Of a stretch of 36,159 nucleotides of DNA, positions 1,081-33,120 are shown piece after piece. The notes below the pieces were generated by a model. The model did not search any database. It saw only the letters and a list, made by a program, of their open reading frames with translations, and had not been told where the DNA came from. This DNA is from Methanobacteriota archaeon (GTDB lineage Archaea; Thermoplasmatota; Poseidoniia; Poseidoniales; Poseidoniaceae). The translations under genes and the position numbers were made by a program. The stretch spans positions 1 to 36,159 of the forward strand of contig JABIYX010000147.1 in assembly GCA_018666575.1 (NCBI GenBank). Reading direction: 5' to 3'. The first letter of the stretch is position 1, and each line of letters opens with the position of its first letter.

Positions 1081-4000
1081 ATGCGAAAAGCGCTATTTTT
1101 AACTCTCCTCTTCACCCTCTCTGTAATGGCTCCGTTGGCTTCTTCAGCAACGACTGAGACCCAATTCAAAGGTGGCTTAACGTCCTATGAGCACACGTTC
1201 AATGGCCAAGGAAACGGTTCTGCTGGAGTGATCACATTCCCATACGGGGCAGAGGTCACATCTGCTCAATTCAACTTCCTCGGTGAGGCGAGTACCACCA
1301 CCTGGACGAACATGACCAACAACAAGGACTTCGGAAGCGCCGGAAGTGGAACTTGGTCGGGTGGACCAAACGGCTTCCCATACGGAACTCGTACCAACCT
1401 TGAAACGGCTAATGACGAAATTGGATTGAAAGGAAACCCCACCAACAACGCTATCTCATTCAAAAATTCAAATGACCTTTCGAGCACAAGTTCTGCCATA
1501 CTCAATTCAACGGGGCAATTCGTTGCACTTGGCGACCAAGGATACAACAGCATCTCAAAGCAGTTCACCGATCTCTCAGTCTCATCTTCCGCAGCTTGGG
1601 ATTACAGAGGAATCGTCGTCAAAGTCGACGATGAAGTCCACTCAACTCGATATACCAGTACCTCGATGTATACTGCTCCAACAATTCAACGATTCAACTC
1701 TACAACAGGGGCATATCTTGGCACTGCAAGTATCTCAACATCGAATTGTATCTCTCAGGTCTCGAGTTACTGGTACGACGCTGCCGTTGACTCAAATGGA
1801 AACATCTGGACTGTATCCTACTCCTATTACTACTTGACAAAGTGGACATTGAACTCAGCAAAGACCCAATGGTCGTGCTCCAGTTACACAAATTACAACT
1901 ACCCAACATATCTTACTGGAGTTGACTTTGATGAAGATACTGGAAAACTCTTCGTCAGTTATTACGACTCTTCAACATACCCAACCTACAACAGATATCT
2001 TATGGAAGTAAATCCATCTAATCCATCCTCAATCAGTTCCACATGGTCACTGGGAACTGCTACTGATTACATGTACAAAACAACTTCAACGGCAGGAAAT
2101 CAGAACTCTGGTCTCGTTGTTGATCTACCTCGTATTATTGTCAATGAGTACAATCAACAAGGTTCACGGCATCACCACTTCACCATGAATGGATTTAATC
2201 TGGACAAAATGGGTGTTCAAGAAATGCCAAACGGTGGCCACTATGGAATTTCACAAGATGATGAGAGTGGCCAAATTTTGTTCGCTTGTTACTACACATC
2301 GTACTGCGGTAGCGTTGCTCGAAAAATCCACATGTGGGGCGACGGGGCTGTCTTTGACGAGAGAACACCCTCGACAACCAGCACAACAATTATTGGAAAA
2401 ACTACAACCTCCAGTCAAACCGTTGACGAAATTAAGTTGCAGAGTGCAATCGGCTACATCCCCACAGGGACTTCAATCGACATCGATGTATCGAATGATG
2501 ACGGCGTAACATGGAAGTCCCTATTGGTCGGTGACAGTAAGAGGTTCTCTGCTGCTGGAAATAAAATCACCTGGAGAGCAACGCTTAACGGAACCTCAAC
2601 GGCCACTCCAATCCTTGATCAGGTTACGGTTCAATACACGACAAATTACTTCACGAGCGGAAATTTCTATGTACGTTCAAACTACAACAACCCGTTCCCG
2701 ACTTATGTTGCTGCAACCATACATTACAACGCCACAGTTCCATCTGGTACGTCGATGAGTGTGCAACTTGGTGGCAGTACCTCAAGTCTCTGCAGTAGTG
2801 GATTGACAACGTTTGGACAATCGGGACTTACCAAATCCTTCACCACCCCAAGCTATGGGTACCTTTGTCTCAAGGTTTCTTTCTCAACCTCGAACTCAGC
2901 AAACACGCCAATCCTTGAAGACATACAGATTGCTCTACACAGCAACGCCCCAACCCGTCCAGGATTTGAAATTCAAGCACCGTATCCAATACCTGCTGGA
3001 TTTAATCCACCATTGAATCCAACTGTTGGTTGGAGCGAAAACGGAGTATTGGTTGGTACGAAAACAATCAATGCAGCAGGACCGACCAATCTTATCGTAA
3101 AGGCGTTCAACGATCGTATCCCTGACACTGGGCAAGGGTTTGTTGATATCCCAATCGATTTGACTTCTGAAAGCAGTGGTATTCTAAGCTTAACTTCATT
3201 CAGCGTGACCTACACCATGCAAACAGTCAATCTTGAAATCAACATCCCCGAAGGAGAAATTCTCCACGAACGTAGTGAGCCCTATGAAGTCATTACTCGC
3301 CACATCGTTGGTGAAAGTGCGACTGCTATTCGCGAGGCTACTCTCACTTTGATGACGACTTCCTCGGCTGCAAATCCAACATTGTTCTGGCAGAACGGAG
3401 ACATCTTCCCTTCACCTAATGATCCTGAAGGATATGTCGTCATGGACGGAAACTCATACTCCACGCTAAACAACAGCATTCTTGAGATTCACTGGTTGTT
3501 TAGAATCACAAGTGAATTCCCAGACCAAAACAGTGTTCGATTCAAGACAGGCTGTCTTGATGATAGTGGGTCTGCAGGTTTCTCACCTCTGGACCTCATT
3601 AGCGATGAAGGGCTCGTAGTCAACCGCACCTTTGGACTTGGATGGATGAAAGTCCGAGACAATGAAGGAGATCTCGTCCGAGATGATGTCCCAAATAATG
3701 CCTGGGTCTCTGCAGGAGAAACGCTCTACTTCCAAGGGGCTATGTGGTTCATGGACTCTGATGATGCTCCTTTAGACAGCGCCTTTGACGTTCGAGTCTC
3801 CCGCAATGGATGGGTCGAATCAACCGCTCGAGATACGACGAATAACAACGGATCTTTCTTCATCAGTGTCGTCACACCTGAGATTGACGTTCCAGATGGA
3901 CTGAACTATCAAGTTCAGACCTACAACGAGCGAAATCCTACCCACGTGATGGCGCCAAACTCAGATTGGTCAAGAACATTCAAGGTCGATGCAACACCAC

Positions 4001-6177
4001 CTGAGCGTGTACAATTGTATCCAACGGATGGTTCATACGAAGCTGGAGTCAACCAACAAGAGGTCAGCGTCTTGGTGCGAGATGCAGTAGGTGTTCCAAT
4101 GGAACTGACACTCAAATACTGGGTTGAGGCAGATCACGACGTCAACAGAAACGGTATTGCAGATGATGGAGAATACGCCAGCAAGCAAGTCACAAACATG
4201 AGCGAGAGCAACAATAAGTGGTTCATCACATCAATTGATCACTCAAGAAACCCGAACATGGGCCGTGTATCCTATTACTGGGAAGGTGGCGACCAAGCAG
4301 GCAATCCAATTTATTATACACAATCCGATTCCGAAGGCGTAGTTTACGAACTCCAATCTGGGCCAGGATTCAATTTTGATGATGCAACATTCCAGACTCG
4401 CAAGGATTCCGCAGCTATCTTTACTGGCCTTGAATGGGTTGGGCACAGCGATGACGAAGCAGTATATGCAGGTCTTGAACAATCCATTACAGTCGGATTT
4501 ATTGACGCAAACACGGCAATTGATTTCGAACATATCTCACTTGTCTTCGACTTTGAAGGACCAAACCCTAGCAGAGATGCACAACGAATTTCTTACTCTG
4601 GATTGAACGATACCTTCTGGAGTGAAAGCAAATACATTCATCTCAGCCAAAGCAGTATGATGTACGAAACTACCAATGAATCAGGACTTCCTTGGATTAT
4701 TGTAACCTTTGAATTTACCTTTGCATGGGATTGGCCAGATGAAGAAATGGGTGATCTGGCTCTTGTTTTCAAAGAACGTGGATCTCCTGAAGATGACATG
4801 CTTTTGATTCTGGAACATACATTCAGAGTTGAGAATGATTTCACACTCTCTCCTACAGATTATACAGTTGAGGATGTAAGCGAACCAAGAACAGGCCAAG
4901 TGGCTGATGGAACCCGTGTTCGCAAGGACGACCGATTGGCGTTTAGTGGACGGGTTGTATACGAAGGAAGTAACGTCCCAGCACCTCGAAACGTTGGTAT
5001 TTTGGTTGAAGTCTTTGATGGTGAAAAGTTGTGGAGCGATGGTTCTCTTACCGAGGATGGAGAATACTTGATCGAAGTACCACTTGATTCCGCTAAGACA
5101 TTGCAATCATCACCAACACGTACATGTTTGATTTCAATAGCCAACATTCCTGGCCGAGGTGAAGATATGACTGGAACATTGGTTTCAACGACCCTACGTG
5201 TTGTTGTTGACGATGCAGCACCTCGAGTTGTTCGAAGAATGGCTCCATTGAATGTCATTGATGTTTCTTCAACCAACGACCTTTCTTCCATCTACGTGGA
5301 ATTCCAAGGCTCTGAAGATGCGGATTTGACCGGTTCCGAACAAATGATACATTGGGTTATGAGAGATCAAACTCGAACGGTTACAATCGGCGCTGGTTCT
5401 GCAGTCCTTGGAATGCAACAAGTTGATCAAGTTGTTTACTGGACTGGCGAAGTTGACATTACTGATGGTGGGACAATTACTCCACAAGCAGGAGATTTCG
5501 TTGGATTTTACATGACAGGATGGGATGCTGCAGGAAACCAGTTCCCACTTGTGTCGAACTCAGAAGCAAGCCCAATTCCCGAACTTGCCTTTGATGATAC
5601 AGACTTCGAGCGACAATGGGTCCGACTTGGAGCCGTTGGTCCTGAATTGAGAGTAAAGTCAATCCAAGTGTCAGATGATCACGTCTCTCCTGGTTCTTCC
5701 GTGGAGATTACAGGAACTGTTGTGAACAACGGCGGAGCAACAGATTCACAATTCAAGGTTGCATTCTTTGCAGGCGACGATACAACCCCGTTCGATGTCA
5801 AGACCATTATCGGAATTGGCGAGGGTGAATCAATCCCTATCACTGTTGACTGGGAAGTTGAAGATGTTGATAGAGTACGAGTTGAAGTCGATTACGGAAA
5901 CATCTTGGTTGAAGTAAATGACAACGACAATACTGCGGAACACGACATCAACATCGCCTATGGAGAATATCTTGGCTGGCTTGACTCACCACGTGAGCAA
6001 CCTCTTGCTTGGATTTTCGCTATGTCTACCATCTTGATTCTGATTGTTGTTGCAACAGTTGCCTCTCGAACTGCAGTTGATCTCGGAGACGGTGCATTCG
6101 CTGATGAAGAAGAAGACTGGGAAGATGACGATGACGAGTACGATGATGACGATGAGTACGACGATGACGAGGACTGA
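1081..6177 (+). CDS. Giant secreted surface protein with propeller-like, Ig-like and CARDB-like modules and an acidic cytoplasmic tail
   Basis: The 1698 residues begin with a clear signal peptide (MRKALFLTLLFTLSVMAPLASSA, cleavage about 23/24). Residues about 160-440 carry repeating blade-like strands (for example AAVDSNGNIWTVS, GVDFDEDTGKLFVS, GISQDDESGQILFA) and suggest a beta-propeller. A long run of beta-rich modules follows. An EF-hand or dockerin-like calcium loop, DVNRNGIADDGE, is near residue 1020, and a CARDB-like Ig domain with VVNNGGATD lies at about 1524-1628. One membrane helix (about 1640-1665) is followed by a tail made almost wholly of Asp and Glu. Many N-x-S/T sequons fit glycosylation. 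It is a probable cell-surface adhesin, S-layer-associated or polymer-binding protein; the ligand is unknown. The gene is isolated, divergent from the signal peptidase pair and followed after 70 nt by the helicase gene. Confidence 0.75.
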   Translation: MRKALFLTLLFTLSVMAPLASSATTETQFKGGLTSYEHTFNGQGNGSAGVITFPYGAEVTSAQFNFLGEASTTTWTNMTNNKDFGSAGSGTWSGGPNGFPYGTRTNLETANDEIGLKGNPTNNAISFKNSNDLSSTSSAILNSTGQFVALGDQGYNSISKQFTDLSVSSSAAWDYRGIVVKVDDEVHSTRYTSTSMYTAPTIQRFNSTTGAYLGTASISTSNCISQVSSYWYDAAVDSNGNIWTVSYSYYYLTKWTLNSAKTQWSCSSYTNYNYPTYLTGVDFDEDTGKLFVSYYDSSTYPTYNRYLMEVNPSNPSSISSTWSLGTATDYMYKTTSTAGNQNSGLVVDLPRIIVNEYNQQGSRHHHFTMNGFNLDKMGVQEMPNGGHYGISQDDESGQILFACYYTSYCGSVARKIHMWGDGAVFDERTPSTTSTTIIGKTTTSSQTVDEIKLQSAIGYIPTGTSIDIDVSNDDGVTWKSLLVGDSKRFSAAGNKITWRATLNGTSTATPILDQVTVQYTTNYFTSGNFYVRSNYNNPFPTYVAATIHYNATVPSGTSMSVQLGGSTSSLCSSGLTTFGQSGLTKSFTTPSYGYLCLKVSFSTSNSANTPILEDIQIALHSNAPTRPGFEIQAPYPIPAGFNPPLNPTVGWSENGVLVGTKTINAAGPTNLIVKAFNDRIPDTGQGFVDIPIDLTSESSGILSLTSFSVTYTMQTVNLEINIPEGEILHERSEPYEVITRHIVGESATAIREATLTLMTTSSAANPTLFWQNGDIFPSPNDPEGYVVMDGNSYSTLNNSILEIHWLFRITSEFPDQNSVRFKTGCLDDSGSAGFSPLDLISDEGLVVNRTFGLGWMKVRDNEGDLVRDDVPNNAWVSAGETLYFQGAMWFMDSDDAPLDSAFDVRVSRNGWVESTARDTTNNNGSFFISVVTPEIDVPDGLNYQVQTYNERNPTHVMAPNSDWSRTFKVDATPPERVQLYPTDGSYEAGVNQQEVSVLVRDAVGVPMELTLKYWVEADHDVNRNGIADDGEYASKQVTNMSESNNKWFITSIDHSRNPNMGRVSYYWEGGDQAGNPIYYTQSDSEGVVYELQSGPGFNFDDATFQTRKDSAAIFTGLEWVGHSDDEAVYAGLEQSITVGFIDANTAIDFEHISLVFDFEGPNPSRDAQRISYSGLNDTFWSESKYIHLSQSSMMYETTNESGLPWIIVTFEFTFAWDWPDEEMGDLALVFKERGSPEDDMLLILEHTFRVENDFTLSPTDYTVEDVSEPRTGQVADGTRVRKDDRLAFSGRVVYEGSNVPAPRNVGILVEVFDGEKLWSDGSLTEDGEYLIEVPLDSAKTLQSSPTRTCLISIANIPGRGEDMTGTLVSTTLRVVVDDAAPRVVRRMAPLNVIDVSSTNDLSSIYVEFQGSEDADLTGSEQMIHWVMRDQTRTVTIGAGSAVLGMQQVDQVVYWTGEVDITDGGTITPQAGDFVGFYMTGWDAAGNQFPLVSNSEASPIPELAFDDTDFERQWVRLGAVGPELRVKSIQVSDDHVSPGSSVEITGTVVNNGGATDSQFKVAFFAGDDTTPFDVKTIIGIGEGESIPITVDWEVEDVDRVRVEVDYGNILVEVNDNDNTAEHDINIAYGEYLGWLDSPREQPLAWIFAMSTILILIVVATVASRTAVDLGDGAFADEEEDWEDDDDEYDDDDEYDDDED

Positions 6178-9744: not shown

Positions 9745-11013
9745 CTACCTTTGAGTGTTTGGTGAGAATAATTCGAGATGTTTTGACCCATATAGGTCAA
9801 ATGTCTCAAACAACTCTCCTATGAGGTATAGGGAGCCAATTGCGAGGGTGTATTGAGGTCGCAATTGTTCAAGAATTGGTTTTACATCTTGTGGTGTTGG
9901 CGCTCGAAGAACAGCTTCTGTAGATGACCAATCAAGATGTATTAATTCTGAAAGAGGCACTCCGGGATAGCGTCCTGTTTGAGGCACTGTGAGCAAAATA
10001 TTCGCTGGCGGATTTTTCTTGCAAAGGTCAATCAACGGTTGAACAAATTCTTCTAAATCATTCTGTGGAGTGCAACCGAAGACCAAACACCATTCCATTT
10101 TTGAAGCCACACGCTCAGTAATGGACGGTAAAACTCGATTTAATCCACTCGGATTATGAGCAGCATCTACGAAAAGAGATCCTCCCCATGACATAGGCTC
10201 GATGTGTTGCATCCGACCAGGCCAGTTGAGTGATTGCATGGACTCATCTATCGAATCCATCTTGTAATTGAGGTGGGCCAAGGCCACTTTTACCAACATC
10301 AATGCTTCTTCTTTCATTGAGGATTTGGAATCGATTGTGATCCATTCTAGATTTGCAGGAGAAGGACTCTCTCCTAGAGGCTCTTGTCCAGCATTATGTG
10401 CTTCGTTTTCGACTGCAGAACGAGCTTCAGTATCATCAATATCTCGAACAAACATTGGTTTTCGAGGTCGAGCAATGGCTGCTTTTTCAGCAGCGATTTC
10501 AGCCAATGTGTCTCCAAGAATTTCTCTATGCTCGAGTTGAATCGATGTGAGGAGGCAAAGGTCAGCGGGTAAGATTCGTGTTGCATCAAAGCGCCCGCCA
10601 AGTCCTGTTTCGACGATGAAAACATCAGGATTGACATCGCGAGCACACAAGCACGAAGCAAGAAATGTAATCTCAAAGAAGGTTAATTCAATACCTAAAT
10701 CGAGTTCAGTTTGCTGAATTAGGGAAAGATAGATCTCGAACTGTTGTTCTGAGATGGGTCGGCCATCAATTCGAATTCGTTCCTCAAGACGAACAAGATG
10801 TGGTGAAGTGAACATGACCGTAGTTTGATCTAATCGATTCAGATGTGTAGCCATTAAAGCACACGCAGTTCCCTTTCCGTTACTCCCTGCAACGTGAATA
10901 ATTGTTGATTCATAGGATTGAATAAGAGAATTGTGAGCCACATTGACGCGTTCCAGTCCAAGCTTCATACCACGGCTTTTGGTCAGGTCAAGCCACTGTC
11001 GGATACTGGACAT
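9745..11013 (-). CDS. folC: Folylpolyglutamate synthase / dihydrofolate synthase (FolC)
   Basis: Mur-ligase-family enzyme that adds glutamate to (dihydro)pteroate or folates using ATP. The ATP loop GSNGKGT is at residues 43-49, and FTSPHLVRLEERIRIDG and FIVETGLGGRFDATR are hallmark FolC segments. A later VDAAHNPSG marks the C-terminal ligase domain. The 422-residue length is normal. The ORF track begins at a GTG (11043), but the ATG at 11013 has GGGGGAG three bases upstream and gives the usual FolC N-terminus, so I prefer it. It is probably the first gene of a two-gene unit with the dCMP deaminase. Its presence implies use of folate-type C1 carriers in this organism, which not all archaea have. 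Confidence 0.9.
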   Translation of the reverse strand: MSSIRQWLDLTKSRGMKLGLERVNVAHNSLIQSYESTIIHVAGSNGKGTACALMATHLNRLDQTTVMFTSPHLVRLEERIRIDGRPISEQQFEIYLSLIQQTELDLGIELTFFEITFLASCLCARDVNPDVFIVETGLGGRFDATRILPADLCLLTSIQLEHREILGDTLAEIAAEKAAIARPRKPMFVRDIDDTEARSAVENEAHNAGQEPLGESPSPANLEWITIDSKSSMKEEALMLVKVALAHLNYKMDSIDESMQSLNWPGRMQHIEPMSWGGSLFVDAAHNPSGLNRVLPSITERVASKMEWCLVFGCTPQNDLEEFVQPLIDLCKKNPPANILLTVPQTGRYPGVPLSELIHLDWSSTEAVLRAPTPQDVKPILEQLRPQYTLAIGSLYLIGELFETFDLYGSKHLELFSPNTQR

Positions 11014-11131
11014 TCGCTCCCCCAGATTCTTCGTGTAGGACACTCATGATAGGTGTGGCGATAGACGATTCTTGCTATGGTTACGTCGATGTGCTCAAAT
11101 GTGTTCCTCTTCTGGCAGGAGCATGAGCGAC

Positions 11132-13249
11132 ATGAACGGAGACTTCCGCCGCCAACTTCCATCTATGATTGGAATGGCCTCGATGTTCTTGGTTACCATC
11201 TTCCTTGCAATGTTTATCCGCCCTTGGTACGACAGGGCTGGATTGCAAGCGTTCGGTGCAGAGGGGGCGTCTCAGTTACGCTATATCGGACTTGAATTGT
11301 TGATGATTTTTATCTTTACAGCAGCAATTCTCGCGCTCGCTCGCTACAAGAAGGAATGGGTCATCAAATACGGGATTATGGGTATTCTCTTCATTGCTCT
11401 CATGTACGCAAGCGTACCATTGGCTCATCAAATCATGGTCGACGACACCGTCACAGCGTTCGAATATGAATCAACAGATGTTACTGAGGCCGAATATTTG
11501 ACTGAAATTGGCATGAATCAATACATTGATTCAATTCGAACCAACGAAAGTGGGATTATCAACAACACGATTCGGTTGAATCAACTCGGGATGGATGAAC
11601 CTGTTTGGACATCTGTGATTCCTCACGGAACTGAAAGTTATGAATTCACTAAACTCGTTGTTGCAACCGGTCCAGATACGATTACAATAAACAATGGAGC
11701 ATTGATTCATACTCTATCACTCACTGATGGAACGCTTCTCTCAACATACGAATGTTTTGAGTACGATTTAGAGGGCAATATCCTTCCTATCGTCCAATTT
11801 GGTTGCATACTTGCAGTCGAAACAAGCGATTCAGTTTACATTGTTGATGGTGGAGAGAAACTCCACCGTTTTGCCACATTTGATGAAACACCTAATGTCA
11901 TGACATTACAGGCTATTTGGCAACTTCCAAGCGAGATGAAAGTCGTTGATGATCTCATTGAAGCCGAACTCCTCGACGACACTCATCTTCTCATTGTTAG
12001 CAAGGAAATGGCTGGAGTTGTTGAACTAGAAAAGACCGTTAGTCAAATTGGAGACGTTGGTTCAGGCTTCCAACAAACTGCAAAGGTTCTCATCAACGCT
12101 ACCTCAAGTGCAAACTTCTCAGCAGCTGATGTCGGTTACTCAAATGTCGCCGATGTACCGATGAGTGAAGCGGATAATGGCAACCAACTGATTGTCCTCG
12201 GAACTGAAGACGGAGACATCATGTCTTGGAATTATCAACCGGGTGAAGAGGAACTTGTTGTCGAAGAAAGCAAAGTTTCAATCAACAATTTCGCCGATCA
12301 AATCCGAGACGTCAGATTGACAGATATTGACAATTCAGGTTATACTGAATTGTTGATCACAACAGAAGATGAAGCACGACTCTTGTACGGATCGAGTATG
12401 GTTCAGAGATTGATTGTCGATGTAGCGGAAGGAGAAAACGTTGCAGTCGCCTTTGGCGATACCTCAGAAGATGTAGAAGATGATACAACACATCTTCATG
12501 CCACTGTCATCGGTGAGAATTATTCCACAACCTCAGGGGTTGTTGAGTCCTCGATGTTCCTAAGTGGAGGAATTGTCTTTGAGGACGTTCCAACATTGAT
12601 TGGATTGCTTGTCAGCATTATATTGATGATTCTACTTTATGTTCACAGCGAATGGTACGTGGTCAACACAGTTGGAATCCTTGTCGGTTCAGGTGTCATT
12701 GTTATGCTTGGTGTTTCCTTTGTTCCAACATTGATTATGGTGTTCATGGTTGCCGCAGCGATATACGATGCATGGGCTGTGTACAAATCGAAGCATATGC
12801 TCGACCTTGCTGATACGATGATTAATCTCAATCTTCCAATTCTCCTGGTTGCGCCACAAGGCTCAGATTATTCCTTTAGAGCTGAACGTGCTCCCCCCTC
12901 AACCGTCATATCTGCGCCTTCAACAGATGATCCAGTATCTCCGCAACCTCGTGAGCGAGTTATCAAAAAGAACAACGATGCAATGCTGATGGGCCTGGGT
13001 GATGTGATCTTCCCAGGTATGCTGGTTCTTTCTGTCCTCCAATACATCGGTGGAGATGATGGGTGGATTATGGCCATCACCACACTGATTGGCAGTCTTA
13101 TTGGTTATTCCATCCTCATGTGGTATGTTGGCCAAGGTAAGGCACAAGCAGGCCTTCCTCTTCTCAATGGTGGAGCCATTCTGGGCTACATTGTCGGTGG
13201 GATAATGACCATTGGAATGGCAATGTTCCAATTCAATATCAGTTTGTAG
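11132..13249 (+). CDS. Presenilin-family (A22) intramembrane aspartyl protease with extracytosolic propeller-like insertion
   Basis: Predicted membrane-embedded aspartyl protease of 705 residues. The C-terminal part has the presenilin/SPP signature: AAIYDAWAVY with Asp546 in TM6, GLGDVIFPG with Asp624 in TM7, and GLPLLNGGAILGY (674-686) as the PAL-type motif in TM9. Nine hydrophobic segments can be drawn: three near the N-terminus, then about 380 residues of hydrophilic beta-rich sequence (about 102-486), then six more. The insertion has blade-like repeats, a Cys pair (ECFEYD, FGCILAV) and an FG-GAP-like DIDNSGYTELLI. Positive charges (RYKKEW; the K-rich loop between TM6 and TM7) place the insertion outside the cell. 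The start is uncertain: the track uses TTG 11072, while ATG 11123 or 11132 sits after AGGAG. The gene ends 10 nt before serS. Confidence 0.8.
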   Translation: MNGDFRRQLPSMIGMASMFLVTIFLAMFIRPWYDRAGLQAFGAEGASQLRYIGLELLMIFIFTAAILALARYKKEWVIKYGIMGILFIALMYASVPLAHQIMVDDTVTAFEYESTDVTEAEYLTEIGMNQYIDSIRTNESGIINNTIRLNQLGMDEPVWTSVIPHGTESYEFTKLVVATGPDTITINNGALIHTLSLTDGTLLSTYECFEYDLEGNILPIVQFGCILAVETSDSVYIVDGGEKLHRFATFDETPNVMTLQAIWQLPSEMKVVDDLIEAELLDDTHLLIVSKEMAGVVELEKTVSQIGDVGSGFQQTAKVLINATSSANFSAADVGYSNVADVPMSEADNGNQLIVLGTEDGDIMSWNYQPGEEELVVEESKVSINNFADQIRDVRLTDIDNSGYTELLITTEDEARLLYGSSMVQRLIVDVAEGENVAVAFGDTSEDVEDDTTHLHATVIGENYSTTSGVVESSMFLSGGIVFEDVPTLIGLLVSIILMILLYVHSEWYVVNTVGILVGSGVIVMLGVSFVPTLIMVFMVAAAIYDAWAVYKSKHMLDLADTMINLNLPILLVAPQGSDYSFRAERAPPSTVISAPSTDDPVSPQPRERVIKKNNDAMLMGLGDVIFPGMLVLSVLQYIGGDDGWIMAITTLIGSLIGYSILMWYVGQGKAQAGLPLLNGGAILGYIVGGIMTIGMAMFQFNISL

Positions 13250-13259
13250 GTGATGAATG

Positions 13260-14549
13260 ATGCTTGATATCCATTTATTCAGAGATGAGCCAGACAAAAT
13301 CCGTGCAGATTTTGATCGACGAAGCCTTCCTCATGACCCAATTAACAGTGTCATTGAATTAGATGCGAAATGGAAAGACTTGCTTCACAAAACTTCAGAT
13401 TTAAGACGTCAAAAGAACGAGGCAGCTCGTGGAATTGGAGCGGCAAAAAAATCTGGAGATGAAGCAGAAGCACAACGTATTCTTGCCGAAGTGGCAGATT
13501 TAGGTTCACGGATTTCTGAGATGGAAGTTCAGACTACAGCAGTTCTTGAAGAGCGAGACGCCATTCGAATGCGAATTCCTAATCTCCTTCATCCAGAAGT
13601 GCCATCTGGTGCTGATGAATCTGGGAACACAAAGCATTCTTTGCATGGCCAAAAACCAACCTTCACCTTTGAACCAAAAACTCACAATGAACTGATTGAA
13701 GAGAACAAGTGGGTTGATCTCGAACGTGCTGCTAAGATTACAGGAAGCCGATTCTTCTTCCTAAAGGGAGACCTTGCACGTATGGAAATGGCTCTACAAG
13801 CCTTCTCTGTTGATTTTATTCAACAACGTGGCTTTACTTTCGTTCAACCACCGGTTATGATGAATCGTGCTGCTTACGAAGGTGTAACTGACCTTTCTGA
13901 CTTTGAGACAGTAATGTATGGCATTGAACCAGATGGCTACTACATGATTGCAACTGCTGAGCACCCACTTACTGCTATGTTCATGGGAGAGACGATTCCA
14001 GAAGATCAACTCCCTATCAAGATGGTCGGTGTTTCCTCATGCTTCCGTCGAGAAGTAGGAGCTCATGGTCAATCGGACAGAGGCATCTGGAGAGTCCATC
14101 AATTCACAAAGATTGAACAAATCATTCTTACAACTCCTGAAACATCATGGGAACTTCATGAAGAATTATTGCAAAACTGTGTCGACCTTTGGGATGCACT
14201 CGGGCTTCATTATGAGGTCGTCAACATCTGTACTGGAGACATGGGGACAGTTGCTGCACGCAAGTATGATCTTGAAGCATGGCTGCCTGGTGCAAAAGCA
14301 TTCAAGGAAATTGTTTCTTGTTCGAACTGTACGGATTACCAATCCAATCGCCTTGATATTCGATATGGAACGCCTGGGCACCCAAACCAACCGATGGTAC
14401 ATACCTTGAATTCAACAGCAGTAGCGACTTCTAGGGCTCTTGTAGCCATCATCGAACAGAACCAACTCGAAGATGGTCGTGTCCGTGTACCAGAAGCACT
14501 TCAGCCGTATATGCAAGGCCAAGACGTCCTAGAACCGTGCAACTGGTAG
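13260..14549 (+). CDS. serS: Seryl-tRNA synthetase
   Basis: Class II aminoacyl-tRNA synthetase that charges tRNA-Ser (and tRNA-Sec where present). An N-terminal coiled-coil arm occupies about residues 30-100. The catalytic core shows [13 protein letters not shown], the motif 2 stretch [46 protein letters not shown]-like sequence and motif 3 in [20 protein letters not shown]. It is the common bacterial/eukaryal-like SerRS, not the unusual methanogen type. The track starts at 13257; the second ATG (13260) is preferred because GGTGA lies 5-6 nt upstream of it and [18 protein letters not shown] is the normal SerRS N-terminus. Its ribosome binding site overlaps the stop codon of the protease gene, so the two are probably co-translated. 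Confidence 0.96.
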   Translation: [429 protein letters not shown]

Positions 14550-29638: not shown

Positions 29639-32600
29639 TCAAAAATCTAACTCTGAGAGTTGATGTTCCAATGCAGCAAGATGTGGATCAACCTTTACTT
29701 CTGGTGTCCTCACTCCACGAATATTCCGTTCAGCATCGAGGCGTGCTAACTCAGCTTCAAGGTCTACTCGGTCCTCTTCAATCGGACGTCGAGTTTCAGA
29801 AACTTGTCTTTCCTCAACGGCAGGCCTTTCTACATCAACTGGCGCAGGCATCTCTTCCCATCCATTTTCAGTGACAATTTCTGGTGCAGGCTCAGCATCG
29901 AGTGACACACTTTCATCAACAATGAGTGTTGGCTGAATGTGTTGAATCATCTCATCCATGACAGGAGTTCTCTGACCTACAGGTATTGCTGTTCGTTCAA
30001 ACGGAAGATATCCATCTCGTTGGAAATCCCACATAGAGCCTCTTGGTACTCCCTTTGTTAATCCTGATGCGTCAATTTGTGTGAGGAGTTCTTCCAAAAC
30101 ACCTGCAGTCTGTTCAAGGGCAATTGCTTCGCCAGCATCCCTTTGGTCGGCCTCTAAGTAAATGTCATCTAGGGCAATACGAATCAATCGTCGTGTTTCG
30201 ACGGCAACGCTTGGCAGTGCTTCAGGACGCATACAGTTCATGCGTAGAGCATCAATCTCTTCTGGAGGTGCTCCGAGTTGACCTAATTGGTCGAGAACAT
30301 TTCGCATCCGTCTCAACATAGTAATCGAACGATCATAATCCTCGAGAATACCTTCCAAATCTAAGATGAGATGGCCTACAGTTTCACCAAGTTGATTTTC
30401 CAAACGTTGTTGAACTGACCATCGAGCAAGCCCACGCACTGCTCCTGCTGTCTGAGGAACTTGCCGTTCAAGTAGGGTCATCACTTCACTGCTGAGCAGA
30501 TTTCGTGGAGTTGCAGCAATATGATCAACTGTAGATTGAACAATTTGTAACGCTCGTTCTACTGCACGATCGAGAAGTATGACTGAGTATCCAAGAGTTC
30601 GTGCTTGTTCTAAACGTTCGATGACTGGACCGAGTCCTCTGAACGTTGAATCATCGTTGAGCAATGCTTGAGCGAGCGGTTCTTCTGAGAGTCGTGCTCT
30701 CAATCGTTCTGCTTCAGCAATGTCTGAAACAGCTTCTTCATGAGCATCTGTTAGTGCTTCTGCTCGGCTAATGAGGCCAGACAATTCAGTCTCTGCATTA
30801 CCTCGTCGAGCACCGAGGTTACCTAATTCGGTCAAGATGTCCCGTCGTTCAGTCATTAATTCACGCATTTCAGAATGGAGTTGCATACGTCGTGCTTCAT
30901 CCTCAGCAAGGCGGTGACGCTCTTCTTCTGCTCTTCGTCGACTTGCAATTGTCTCTGCTTCGATTTGGTCAAGTTTGGCCTGTGCAGCACGAACCTTTTC
31001 TTCAGAAACATTCGATTTGCTTTGGGCACTCGATTGACGTTCTCGCATCGAAGATATTTGTTCTTCAAGGGCTCGTAGTCTTCGTTCCTCTGTATCGATT
31101 TGATCACGAACAGATGACAACTTCTGTGCATTTGATTCAAGTTCAGCACGAGTAGAGGCTTCACTTGAGGAGAGCTCTTCCAACTCATTTCGAAGTGCTT
31201 CACTGCTTGTTGCATTTCCAAGTGCCTTGGCGAGTTCACCAGCACGTTCACTCAGTTGATGCTCAAGCTCACTCACACGTCGTAGTAATCGGTCTGCACG
31301 TTCTTCCGCTTGTTCCATTCGAGTTCTTGATTCAGAGACAGTGACTTGAACTCGATTGAGTTCATCGTTTTTTGACTGAATGGTTAATGATTGATCCCCA
31401 GAAGATTCTTTGATCTCTCCCAAGCGAATGAGAGCCTCAGTTCTCTGTTTCTCAGAATCCTGTAATTGCGTTGTTAATCCAGCATTCGTCCGCAAAAGGG
31501 AGTCTGAACGAAGTTCTGCTTCCTCAAGTCGTCGTCTTAATCCGGCATCAACACCTGCTACAGGAGATGCAGCCGGTAAGCCCTTACTCGAATCCGCTCC
31601 ATCGATTCGAATTGAGACCTTACTTCGATGCTGGCGAACAAGGTCAAGTCCGATTTCAAATCCATACATTGTCATGAGTCGATGCATCATGGTTTCCTTT
31701 CGCTTTTCAGATCGAGTTCGGACGGATGATAAAGCCTCAACAAAACTCTCCAGTGAGAAGGATTCAACATCGCCTGTTGAAGATGAAACCGTTGTTCCTG
31801 AAGCAAGGCGATGGAGTTTCACAATACGCTTACTTTCCGTTAATCCCATCATGGCCTCATCAAAGGATTGTCCATTTGCCGCCATTGCTACTGGAATTCC
31901 CTTAACCAATGCAAGTGATACTGCTTTGTTACTTGCGCCTGCTTTGAGATGTCCAGTCACTTGTTCTTCCAAAGCGGCACTGAGCATAGACATGACTGCA
32001 TCTGAGCCACCTTTTCCTTCTCTGAGGATGAATCCATCAGGGAGGGTGGCTGCTCCTTCAGCATAGGTGCCGATTTCCCCATCGAGTTGAGCGGTAAGAT
32101 CAGTCAAAAGGCGAGCATGATTCGTGTCGAGCTCAGTCCATATTGCAATAACAATGGTACTACTCGAAGCAAGCAATACTGACGCATCACCCATCTTCAG
32201 CGTAGCATATCCTTGTTCAGTTCCACCTAATTGTGATTGATGTGATGCCATCGAATCAGCGAGTGATGAGATACTCGAGGCCAGTTCCTCAGATTTGCCT
32301 GGGAGTGTTCCTGCACTATCGATAAGAATTCCTTGATCTGCTGCAAGTGCTCCTTGGACGTGATCGTATCCTTCAAGTGTGGAAAGAACGGCAGAAATGT
32401 TTCGGGCGAAGAGCCGGTCTGTGAGTGATGATCCTGCAGAAAGACCTTGGGCATCTGCTTGAAATTCAAAGGCTTCAGGAATGAGTGTCGCCAACGACCC
32501 AAGGCCTCTGAGTGAACAAGCGTAACCCACGAGTCTGTGCGTACCTTCTTCAGCAGCTTCCAAAGCCTTTCGTGCATCGCCTCCTCCAAGGAGTTTCGTA

Positions 32601-32779
32601 GCACTGTCGCCTTCACAAAGCCAACCAACAATCCTGCCCGCTCGAACAAGTCGATGGCCATAGGGTGTTTTTCTTCTGCCGACCCATGTGGTAATATATC
32701 CGTTTTCAAACGGTTGAATTGTACCTGGAGATACGTTTAATTCTTCATCTATTTGCTCGCTGTGTGGTAAATCAAACAT
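29639..32779 (-). CDS. Roadblock/LC7-like domain plus long coiled-coil protein
   Basis: A cytoplasmic-looking protein of 1046 residues. Residues about 130-232 resemble a Roadblock/LC7 domain (LEGYDHVQGALAADQGILIDSAG ... YATLKMGDASVLLAS ... VIAIWTELDTNHARLLTDLTAQL), the fold of MglB and other small-GTPase regulators. Residues about 410-700 are continuous heptad coiled coil rich in Glu, Arg, Ala and Ser. About 700-960 is a further alpha-helical domain, and the C-terminal 100 residues are acidic and linker-like with a final helix. There are no Walker motifs, so it is not an SMC or Rad50 ATPase. The start ATG 32779 shares one base with the stop of the upstream gene (TGATG) and has GGTGA four bases away; the track start at 32842 lies inside that gene. 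Confidence 0.7.
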   Translation of the reverse strand: MFDLPHSEQIDEELNVSPGTIQPFENGYITTWVGRRKTPYGHRLVRAGRIVGWLCEGDSATKLLGGGDARKALEAAEEGTHRLVGYACSLRGLGSLATLIPEAFEFQADAQGLSAGSSLTDRLFARNISAVLSTLEGYDHVQGALAADQGILIDSAGTLPGKSEELASSISSLADSMASHQSQLGGTEQGYATLKMGDASVLLASSSTIVIAIWTELDTNHARLLTDLTAQLDGEIGTYAEGAATLPDGFILREGKGGSDAVMSMLSAALEEQVTGHLKAGASNKAVSLALVKGIPVAMAANGQSFDEAMMGLTESKRIVKLHRLASGTTVSSSTGDVESFSLESFVEALSSVRTRSEKRKETMMHRLMTMYGFEIGLDLVRQHRSKVSIRIDGADSSKGLPAASPVAGVDAGLRRRLEEAELRSDSLLRTNAGLTTQLQDSEKQRTEALIRLGEIKESSGDQSLTIQSKNDELNRVQVTVSESRTRMEQAEERADRLLRRVSELEHQLSERAGELAKALGNATSSEALRNELEELSSSEASTRAELESNAQKLSSVRDQIDTEERRLRALEEQISSMRERQSSAQSKSNVSEEKVRAAQAKLDQIEAETIASRRRAEEERHRLAEDEARRMQLHSEMRELMTERRDILTELGNLGARRGNAETELSGLISRAEALTDAHEEAVSDIAEAERLRARLSEEPLAQALLNDDSTFRGLGPVIERLEQARTLGYSVILLDRAVERALQIVQSTVDHIAATPRNLLSSEVMTLLERQVPQTAGAVRGLARWSVQQRLENQLGETVGHLILDLEGILEDYDRSITMLRRMRNVLDQLGQLGAPPEEIDALRMNCMRPEALPSVAVETRRLIRIALDDIYLEADQRDAGEAIALEQTAGVLEELLTQIDASGLTKGVPRGSMWDFQRDGYLPFERTAIPVGQRTPVMDEMIQHIQPTLIVDESVSLDAEPAPEIVTENGWEEMPAPVDVERPAVEERQVSETRRPIEEDRVDLEAELARLDAERNIRGVRTPEVKVDPHLAALEHQLSELDF

Positions 32780-33120
32780 CAAATCACCTGTGTTTTTGTT
32801 GCATTTATGCGCTGTCGTTGACGTGTAAGTTGGTAACGCCACATACCTTTCGAACCGTTTTTGCCAGAAATAGCAGCAAATACCCCTGCATCAATCTGGT
32901 CAATGACGGTAAGTCGTCGTGATTCAATCCATACTTCGTGCAGTTCACCAATTCCTAAGGAAGAAGCGACTGAGGCGCATTTAGACCATTCAACACGCTG
33001 CTCTTTCAGAGATTCTGGCCAACGTTTTGTCGTGGAATGTTCATTTCCGAACTGATCGAAAAGCCGAACATGACGTGCGTCTTTGATTTCACAAAGACCA
33101 GAAAAAACACTGTTCAGCAT
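32779..33120 (-). CDS. Small Roadblock/LC7-like protein
   Basis: A 113-residue protein with the alternating strand-helix-strand layout of Roadblock/LC7 domains. It opens CEIKDARHVRLFDQFGNEHST, continues through a helix with EWSKCASVASSLGIGELHEVWIES and strands RLTVIDQIDAGVFAAISGK, and ends in a basic helix. The match is by pattern, not by an invariant motif, so the family call is moderate. Such proteins dimerise and bind or activate Ras-like GTPases (MglB, Ego/Ragulator). It is translationally coupled to the Roadblock/coiled-coil gene by a one-base overlap. The start at 33120 has only a weak GAGGTTTGAG upstream, and a longer overlapping frame upstream makes the exact start uncertain. Confidence 0.55.
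   Translation of the reverse strand: MLNSVFSGLCEIKDARHVRLFDQFGNEHSTTKRWPESLKEQRVEWSKCASVASSLGIGELHEVWIESRRLTVIDQIDAGVFAAISGKNGSKGMWRYQLTRQRQRINATKTQVI

Follow-up and report, generated by a model that had tools for sequence, protein, structure and literature searches.

A presenilin-type intramembrane protease of Poseidoniaceae with a predicted beta-propeller in the TM3–TM4 loop

Archaeal presenilin homologues (PSHs), which consist of the bare membrane core, are used as simple models of presenilin; gamma-secretase is composed of presenilin, nicastrin, APH-1, and PEN-2. In PSH-type enzymes, two aspartates located in the bilayer cut transmembrane (TM) segments (PMC2947513). How intramembrane proteases such as gamma-secretase and the SPPL enzymes choose their substrates is still debated; the PA ectodomains of SPPL2 take part in substrate recognition and change the cleavage of TNF-alpha, and the exclusion of bulky substrates by the nicastrin ectodomain is under discussion (PMC12043953).

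The protease considered here comes from a Methanobacteriota archaeon of the Poseidoniaceae (Marine Group II). The window analysed comprises one entire contig of 36 kb (G000:C46), in which the protease gene is flanked as follows:

9745..11043, minus strand: folC-type folylpolyglutamate/dihydrofolate synthase, divergent, a conserved neighbour
11132..13249, plus strand: presenilin-type intramembrane aspartyl protease with a predicted propeller insertion, 705 aa, recognised by profile and PDB matches
13257..14549, plus strand: serS, seryl-tRNA synthetase, 7 bp downstream of the protease gene, a conserved neighbour of both the long and the compact forms of the protease

Translation of the protease could equally well begin at the in-frame ATG at 11123 (MSDMNGDF...).

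The archaeal PSH from Methanoculleus marisnigri (MCMJR1; PDB:4HYC/4Y6K) resembles this protease in its nine TM helices and its YD, GxGD, and PAL-type motifs, and the C-terminal cores of the two are 28% identical in the structural alignment. The PSH has 301 aa and a short TM3–TM4 loop, whereas the window protease carries about 373 extra residues there and thus departs from the compact PSH architecture (~300 aa, short TM3–TM4 loop). SPPL2a/b/c are also A22 proteases with a covalent outside domain involved in substrate recognition (PMC12043953), but in them this domain is an N-terminal PA fold, and in the window protease, a predicted propeller inside the TM3–TM4 loop; Pfam scans of the protease and its homologues yielded no PA domain. 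Gamma-secretase combines a presenilin-type catalytic core with a large outer-face ectodomain, a possible functional analogy, although its ectodomain is a separate subunit with a different fold, while that of the window protease lies within the protease chain. Nicastrin, APH-1, and PEN-2 were absent among the genes scanned, which were those of the window only. A presenilin-type protease with a propeller insertion is undescribed in the open literature searched, which does not establish priority.

Family and membrane core of the protease

An earlier note, made from this stretch of DNA alone, had described a presenilin-type protease with the A22 motifs YD, GLGD, and GLPLLN in the last third of the protein, and both statements are borne out. 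The archaeal PSH equivalog model of NCBIfam (NF041679) matches the protease with 215.1 bits (cut-off 125), the C-terminal third matches PF06550 (SPP) with 153.3 bits (cut-off 23.9), covering profile positions 92–279 only, and the PSH crystal structure PDB:4HYC is found by sequence search at E=2.3e-31. Of the two Pfam families that the note had named for an HMM check, PF06550 responded clearly (153 bits), and PF01080 (presenilin) only weakly, in 31 of the 61 members, with the best value of 3e-4. YD (residues 545–546) and GLGD (621–624), hence both catalytic residues Asp546 and Asp624, are present in all 61 homologues, and GLPLLN, the PAL-type motif before TM9 (674–679), in 60–61 of the 61, the shortfall being one unread residue. 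The protease belongs to the presenilin/PSH family (MEROPS A22).

AlphaFold2 (AF2) and hydropathy agree on nine TM helices; YD lies in TM6 and GLGD at TM7:

11141..11437, plus strand: TM1–TM3, AF2 helices at residues 4–35, 49–71, and 75–102, supported by hydropathy
12584..12718, plus strand: TM4–TM5 (485–504, 508–529), from AF2
12725..12787, plus strand: TM6 (532–552) with the first catalytic Asp, Y545–D546 at 12764–12769, from AF2 and the homologue alignment
12788..12982, plus strand: TM6–TM7 loop, predicted cytosolic; residues 553–575 conserved, 577–615 variable with low pLDDT
12992..13045, plus strand: GLGD motif (621–624, 12992–13003) with the second catalytic residue Asp624, and TM7, from the alignment and AF2
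13052..13132, plus strand: TM8 (641–667), from AF2
13151..13231, plus strand: GLPLLN (PAL-type) motif (13151–13168) and TM9, from the alignment and AF2

The full-length model aligns with PSH (PDB:4Y6K) over 207 columns at 28% identity, with a TM-score of 0.55 by target length. Its pTM is 0.58, with low confidence at residues 566–620 of the TM6–TM7 loop, and hence it does not fix the orientation of the propeller over the membrane domain. No stretch of the protein is better conserved (mean 0.90) than the beginning of this loop (window positions 12782–12856, protease residues 551–575; YKSKHMLDLADTMINLNLPILLVAP), and the remainder beyond residue 575 is variable and poorly predicted.

The insert between TM3 and TM4

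The features of the insert to which we refer below are:

11447..12565, plus strand: inserted domain, probably extracytosolic, residues 106–478, predicted seven-bladed beta-propeller (pLDDT 91.2, pTM 0.91)
11753..11755, plus strand: Cys208, putative disulphide partner of Cys225, conserved in 56 of 61 relatives
11804..11806, plus strand: Cys225, invariant (61 of 61)
12323..12358, plus strand: FG-GAP-like motif DIDNSGYTELLI (residues 398–409) in a late blade, found by pattern; PF13517 weak in one member

The insert of about 373 residues begins after TM3, ends before TM4, and is predicted to be all-beta, in agreement with the earlier note, which had placed some 380 beta-rich residues between these helices. 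The survey of homologues that the note had proposed found the insertion in 61 relatives, at lengths of 335–404 aa, and in nearly all sampled Poseidoniaceae. The note had further expected structure prediction to yield a propeller, and it did: folded alone with a 61-row alignment, the insert gave an all-beta AF2 model of about 28 strands (pLDDT 91.2, pTM 0.91), for which Foldseek found 722 chains among solved PDB structures at E<=1e-3. The top neighbours are propellers, largely seven-bladed (DDB1-BPB, the clathrin terminal domain, RACK1, Nup43, G-beta, beta-TrCP), with TM-scores mostly about 0.4–0.55. The insert is thus a beta-propeller, a ring of approximately four-stranded blades, as predicted with high confidence, not solved; seven blades is an inferred, not a measured, count, based on the number of strands and the fold neighbours. 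The architecture and the family of the protease as described here are close to certain.

By sequence, Pfam gives weak, scattered matches to the insert (e.g., the BBS7 propeller in nine of the 61 members, best 0.0026), and a search against PDB sequences retrieved nothing except designed “Cake” propellers and a GAPDH, all at E>=0.012; hence the insert belongs to no named family. Only generic propeller matches were obtained from a viral structure library. The FG-GAP-like motif is incomplete in many members, with the strict pattern in 27 of the 61 and Cys at position 400 in 12. Just two residues of the insert are invariant, C120 and P161 (insert-alignment numbering). Omega values between close relatives are 0.05–0.10 for the insert and 0.01–0.07 for the membrane parts, so both are under constraint, the insert being the freer; given its few invariant residues and its faster evolution compared with the core, there is no obvious conserved binding site.

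Three separate hints suggest that the insert is extracytosolic. First, its charge is strongly biased, with K+R of 13.7 versus D+E of 63.7 (means over 61 relatives), and the positive charge sits in the TM2–3, TM6–7, and TM8–9 loops, which matches the presenilin topology (N-in, C-out); the outside location assigned in the note by the charge rule is therefore retained. Second, 44 of the 61 inserts contain exactly two Cys, and the conserved Cys208–Cys225 pair, mostly the sole Cys of the insert, suggests a disulphide and thus an outside location. Third, the insert is enriched in N-glycosylation sequons (342 observed, 213 expected in shuffles), while their number in the TM6–TM7 loop is 11, with 14 expected.

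Conservation and loss of the insert in Poseidoniales

A match to the protease was found in 138 of the 146 sampled Poseidoniaceae genomes, mostly full-length where the contig allows, and the eight genomes lacking it are incomplete assemblies (70–83% complete). A profile search with the insert in five long-form Poseidoniales genomes detected exactly one copy in each, within the protease. The typical locus in Poseidoniaceae lies between folC and serS, which are housekeeping neighbours, uninformative about a substrate, a partner, or a ligand.

Several minor observations concern these loci. One Poseidoniaceae homologue (L044, 1888–4314) reaches about 809 aa and has some 110 additional residues N-terminal to the EWYV motif. 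The MGII protease also lies beside serS on two contigs whose titles name Rhodobiaceae and Flavobacteriales bacteria (L043, L079); these are probably mis-binned MAG contigs. In the window, a 148 aa dCMP/cytidine-type deaminase (PF00383; 9272–9718, minus strand) is encoded next to folC, and a deaminase occupies this place in most sister-family loci read, at about 73–82% identity. Elsewhere in the window, an ORF of 1067 aa (29639–32842, minus strand) matches nothing in Pfam at E<=0.001, and positions 1081–6177 encode a 1698 aa protein, whose sole recognised domain is CARDB near the C terminus; in long-form genomes of the sister family f2 (L147, L153), the C-terminal part of this protein is found again, upstream of the helicase.

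In f2, which corresponds to Thalassarchaeaceae by its named members, four genera (g15, g17, g19, g22) have the long form, and seven genera have a compact protease, mostly of about 350–430 aa of open frame. Both forms share one locus, preceded by the divergent folC and followed closely by serS. The number of residues before the EWYV motif distinguishes them: 136–191 in the compact versus 505–558 in the long f2 genes examined, and 474–563 in intact Poseidoniales long forms versus approximately 110–191 in the compact homologues of the phylum. Compact orthologues at the folC–serS locus (L141–L146, L151, L152) come from one Thalassarchaeaceae clade; two such copies (L151, L152) were found on separate contigs of one genome (G178), perhaps owing to duplication or a mixed bin.

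In the core protease tree, the compact genes form one clade (100/97), whose placement within the order the tree does not give. Trees of serS and of the helicase likewise group the compact genomes into a single clade, which falls within f2 next to a genus with the long form (95/86; SH-aLRT 98). That long-form row is a long branch, which makes the exact sister of the compact clade less certain. These data are best explained by an insert that the ancestor of Poseidoniales already had and that the compact clade lost once. As this clade does without the insert, catalysis would not require it. Splitting-off of the insert as a separate gene was considered and rejected, as a search in ten compact Thalassarchaeaceae genomes found no stand-alone copy.

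Possible roles of the propeller and inserts in other families

The protease would cut transmembrane segments within the bilayer, like other PSHs. The propeller may lie over the outer entrance to the substrate path. Like nicastrin's ectodomain in gamma-secretase or the SPPL2 PA domain, it would there let substrates in, position them, or keep them out according to how large their outside stubs are and what sequence these have. The note had suggested that an external sensor or substrate-recruiting domain gates the cutting, and such a role has precedents in these relatives (PMC12043953). By its position and by analogy with these systems, the propeller is most likely a covalent substrate selector at the outer face, a proposal to which we nonetheless give somewhat less than an even chance; the statement as a whole, that is, a PSH-family protease with a seven-bladed propeller in the TM3–TM4 loop that selects substrates, falls just short of even. 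The compact clade, living without the propeller, argues against it being an essential gate. With a single-chain presenilin and compact orthologues at the same locus, the effect of an ectodomain is addressable without a four-subunit assembly.

Propellers are common protein-interaction platforms, and the fold neighbours of the insert are mostly interaction scaffolds. The propeller might accordingly serve for docking or stability, anchoring the protease to a component of the envelope or translocon, or stabilising the TM bundle, with no substrate choice involved. This is rather unlikely: the faster evolution of the insert relative to the core fits it, but in the compact clade, where ten genomes searched yielded no stand-alone domain, the anchoring would have been given up.

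Less probable still is a sensor, in which the propeller would bind an outside ligand or ion and switch the protease via TM3 and TM4, resulting in ligand-regulated intramembrane proteolysis. The direct splicing of the propeller between these two helices and the FG-GAP-like acidic motifs in a late blade, possibly of a cation-binding type, are consistent with such switching, but many members have only part of the motif, as detailed above, invariant residues in the insert are few, and no linked signalling gene adjoins the protease at the loci examined. Finally, the reading of the long frame as an artefact, whether two genes joined through a misassembly or a frameshift or an insertion in decay, has nothing in its favour and is refuted by conservation, namely, by the same architecture in 138 of 146 separately assembled family genomes, including the single-contig G011, by frames uninterrupted in nearly all genomes, and by strong purifying selection.

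The earlier note had described ordinary archaeal presenilin homologues as compact, and this agrees with the 301 aa of PSH and with about 280–350 aa in most other Thermoplasmatota homologues. Beta-rich inserts of approximately 227–370 aa are nevertheless found in the same loop in six other families (f8, f11, f18, f26, f28, f33; L181–L185, L248–L253), the f28 length being a minimum, as that protein ends at the contig end; thus, the design is wider than the order Poseidoniales.

Homology of these inserts is partly supported by their alignments. The f33 and f26 inserts are 38% identical along nearly the whole length; between the Poseidoniales and f8/f18 inserts there is a weak, colinear alignment of 79 columns (P=5e-4; best control 0.004), the f33/f26 and f8/f18 inserts also align weakly (P=2e-4), and for the f11 and f28 inserts, a common origin with the others is not detectable by alignment. 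In genome G283, the insert profile has a single weak match (E=0.07), which falls inside the insert of its PSH, and FG-GAP-like acidic motifs recur in several Thermoplasmatota inserts. The inserts may stem from one ancient insertion or from repeated insertion at a permissive site.

On a broader and doubtful reading, Thermoplasmatota would have evolved a single-chain counterpart of gamma-secretase, with a propeller substrate gate in the TM3–TM4 loop that was ancestral to several families and repeatedly lost or replaced. If true, this would provide a natural with/without series on ectodomain control of an intramembrane protease. Two apparently longer proteins, L187 (from the same genome as L173) and L189, were set aside from the inserts, as they have N-terminal extensions, not loop inserts.
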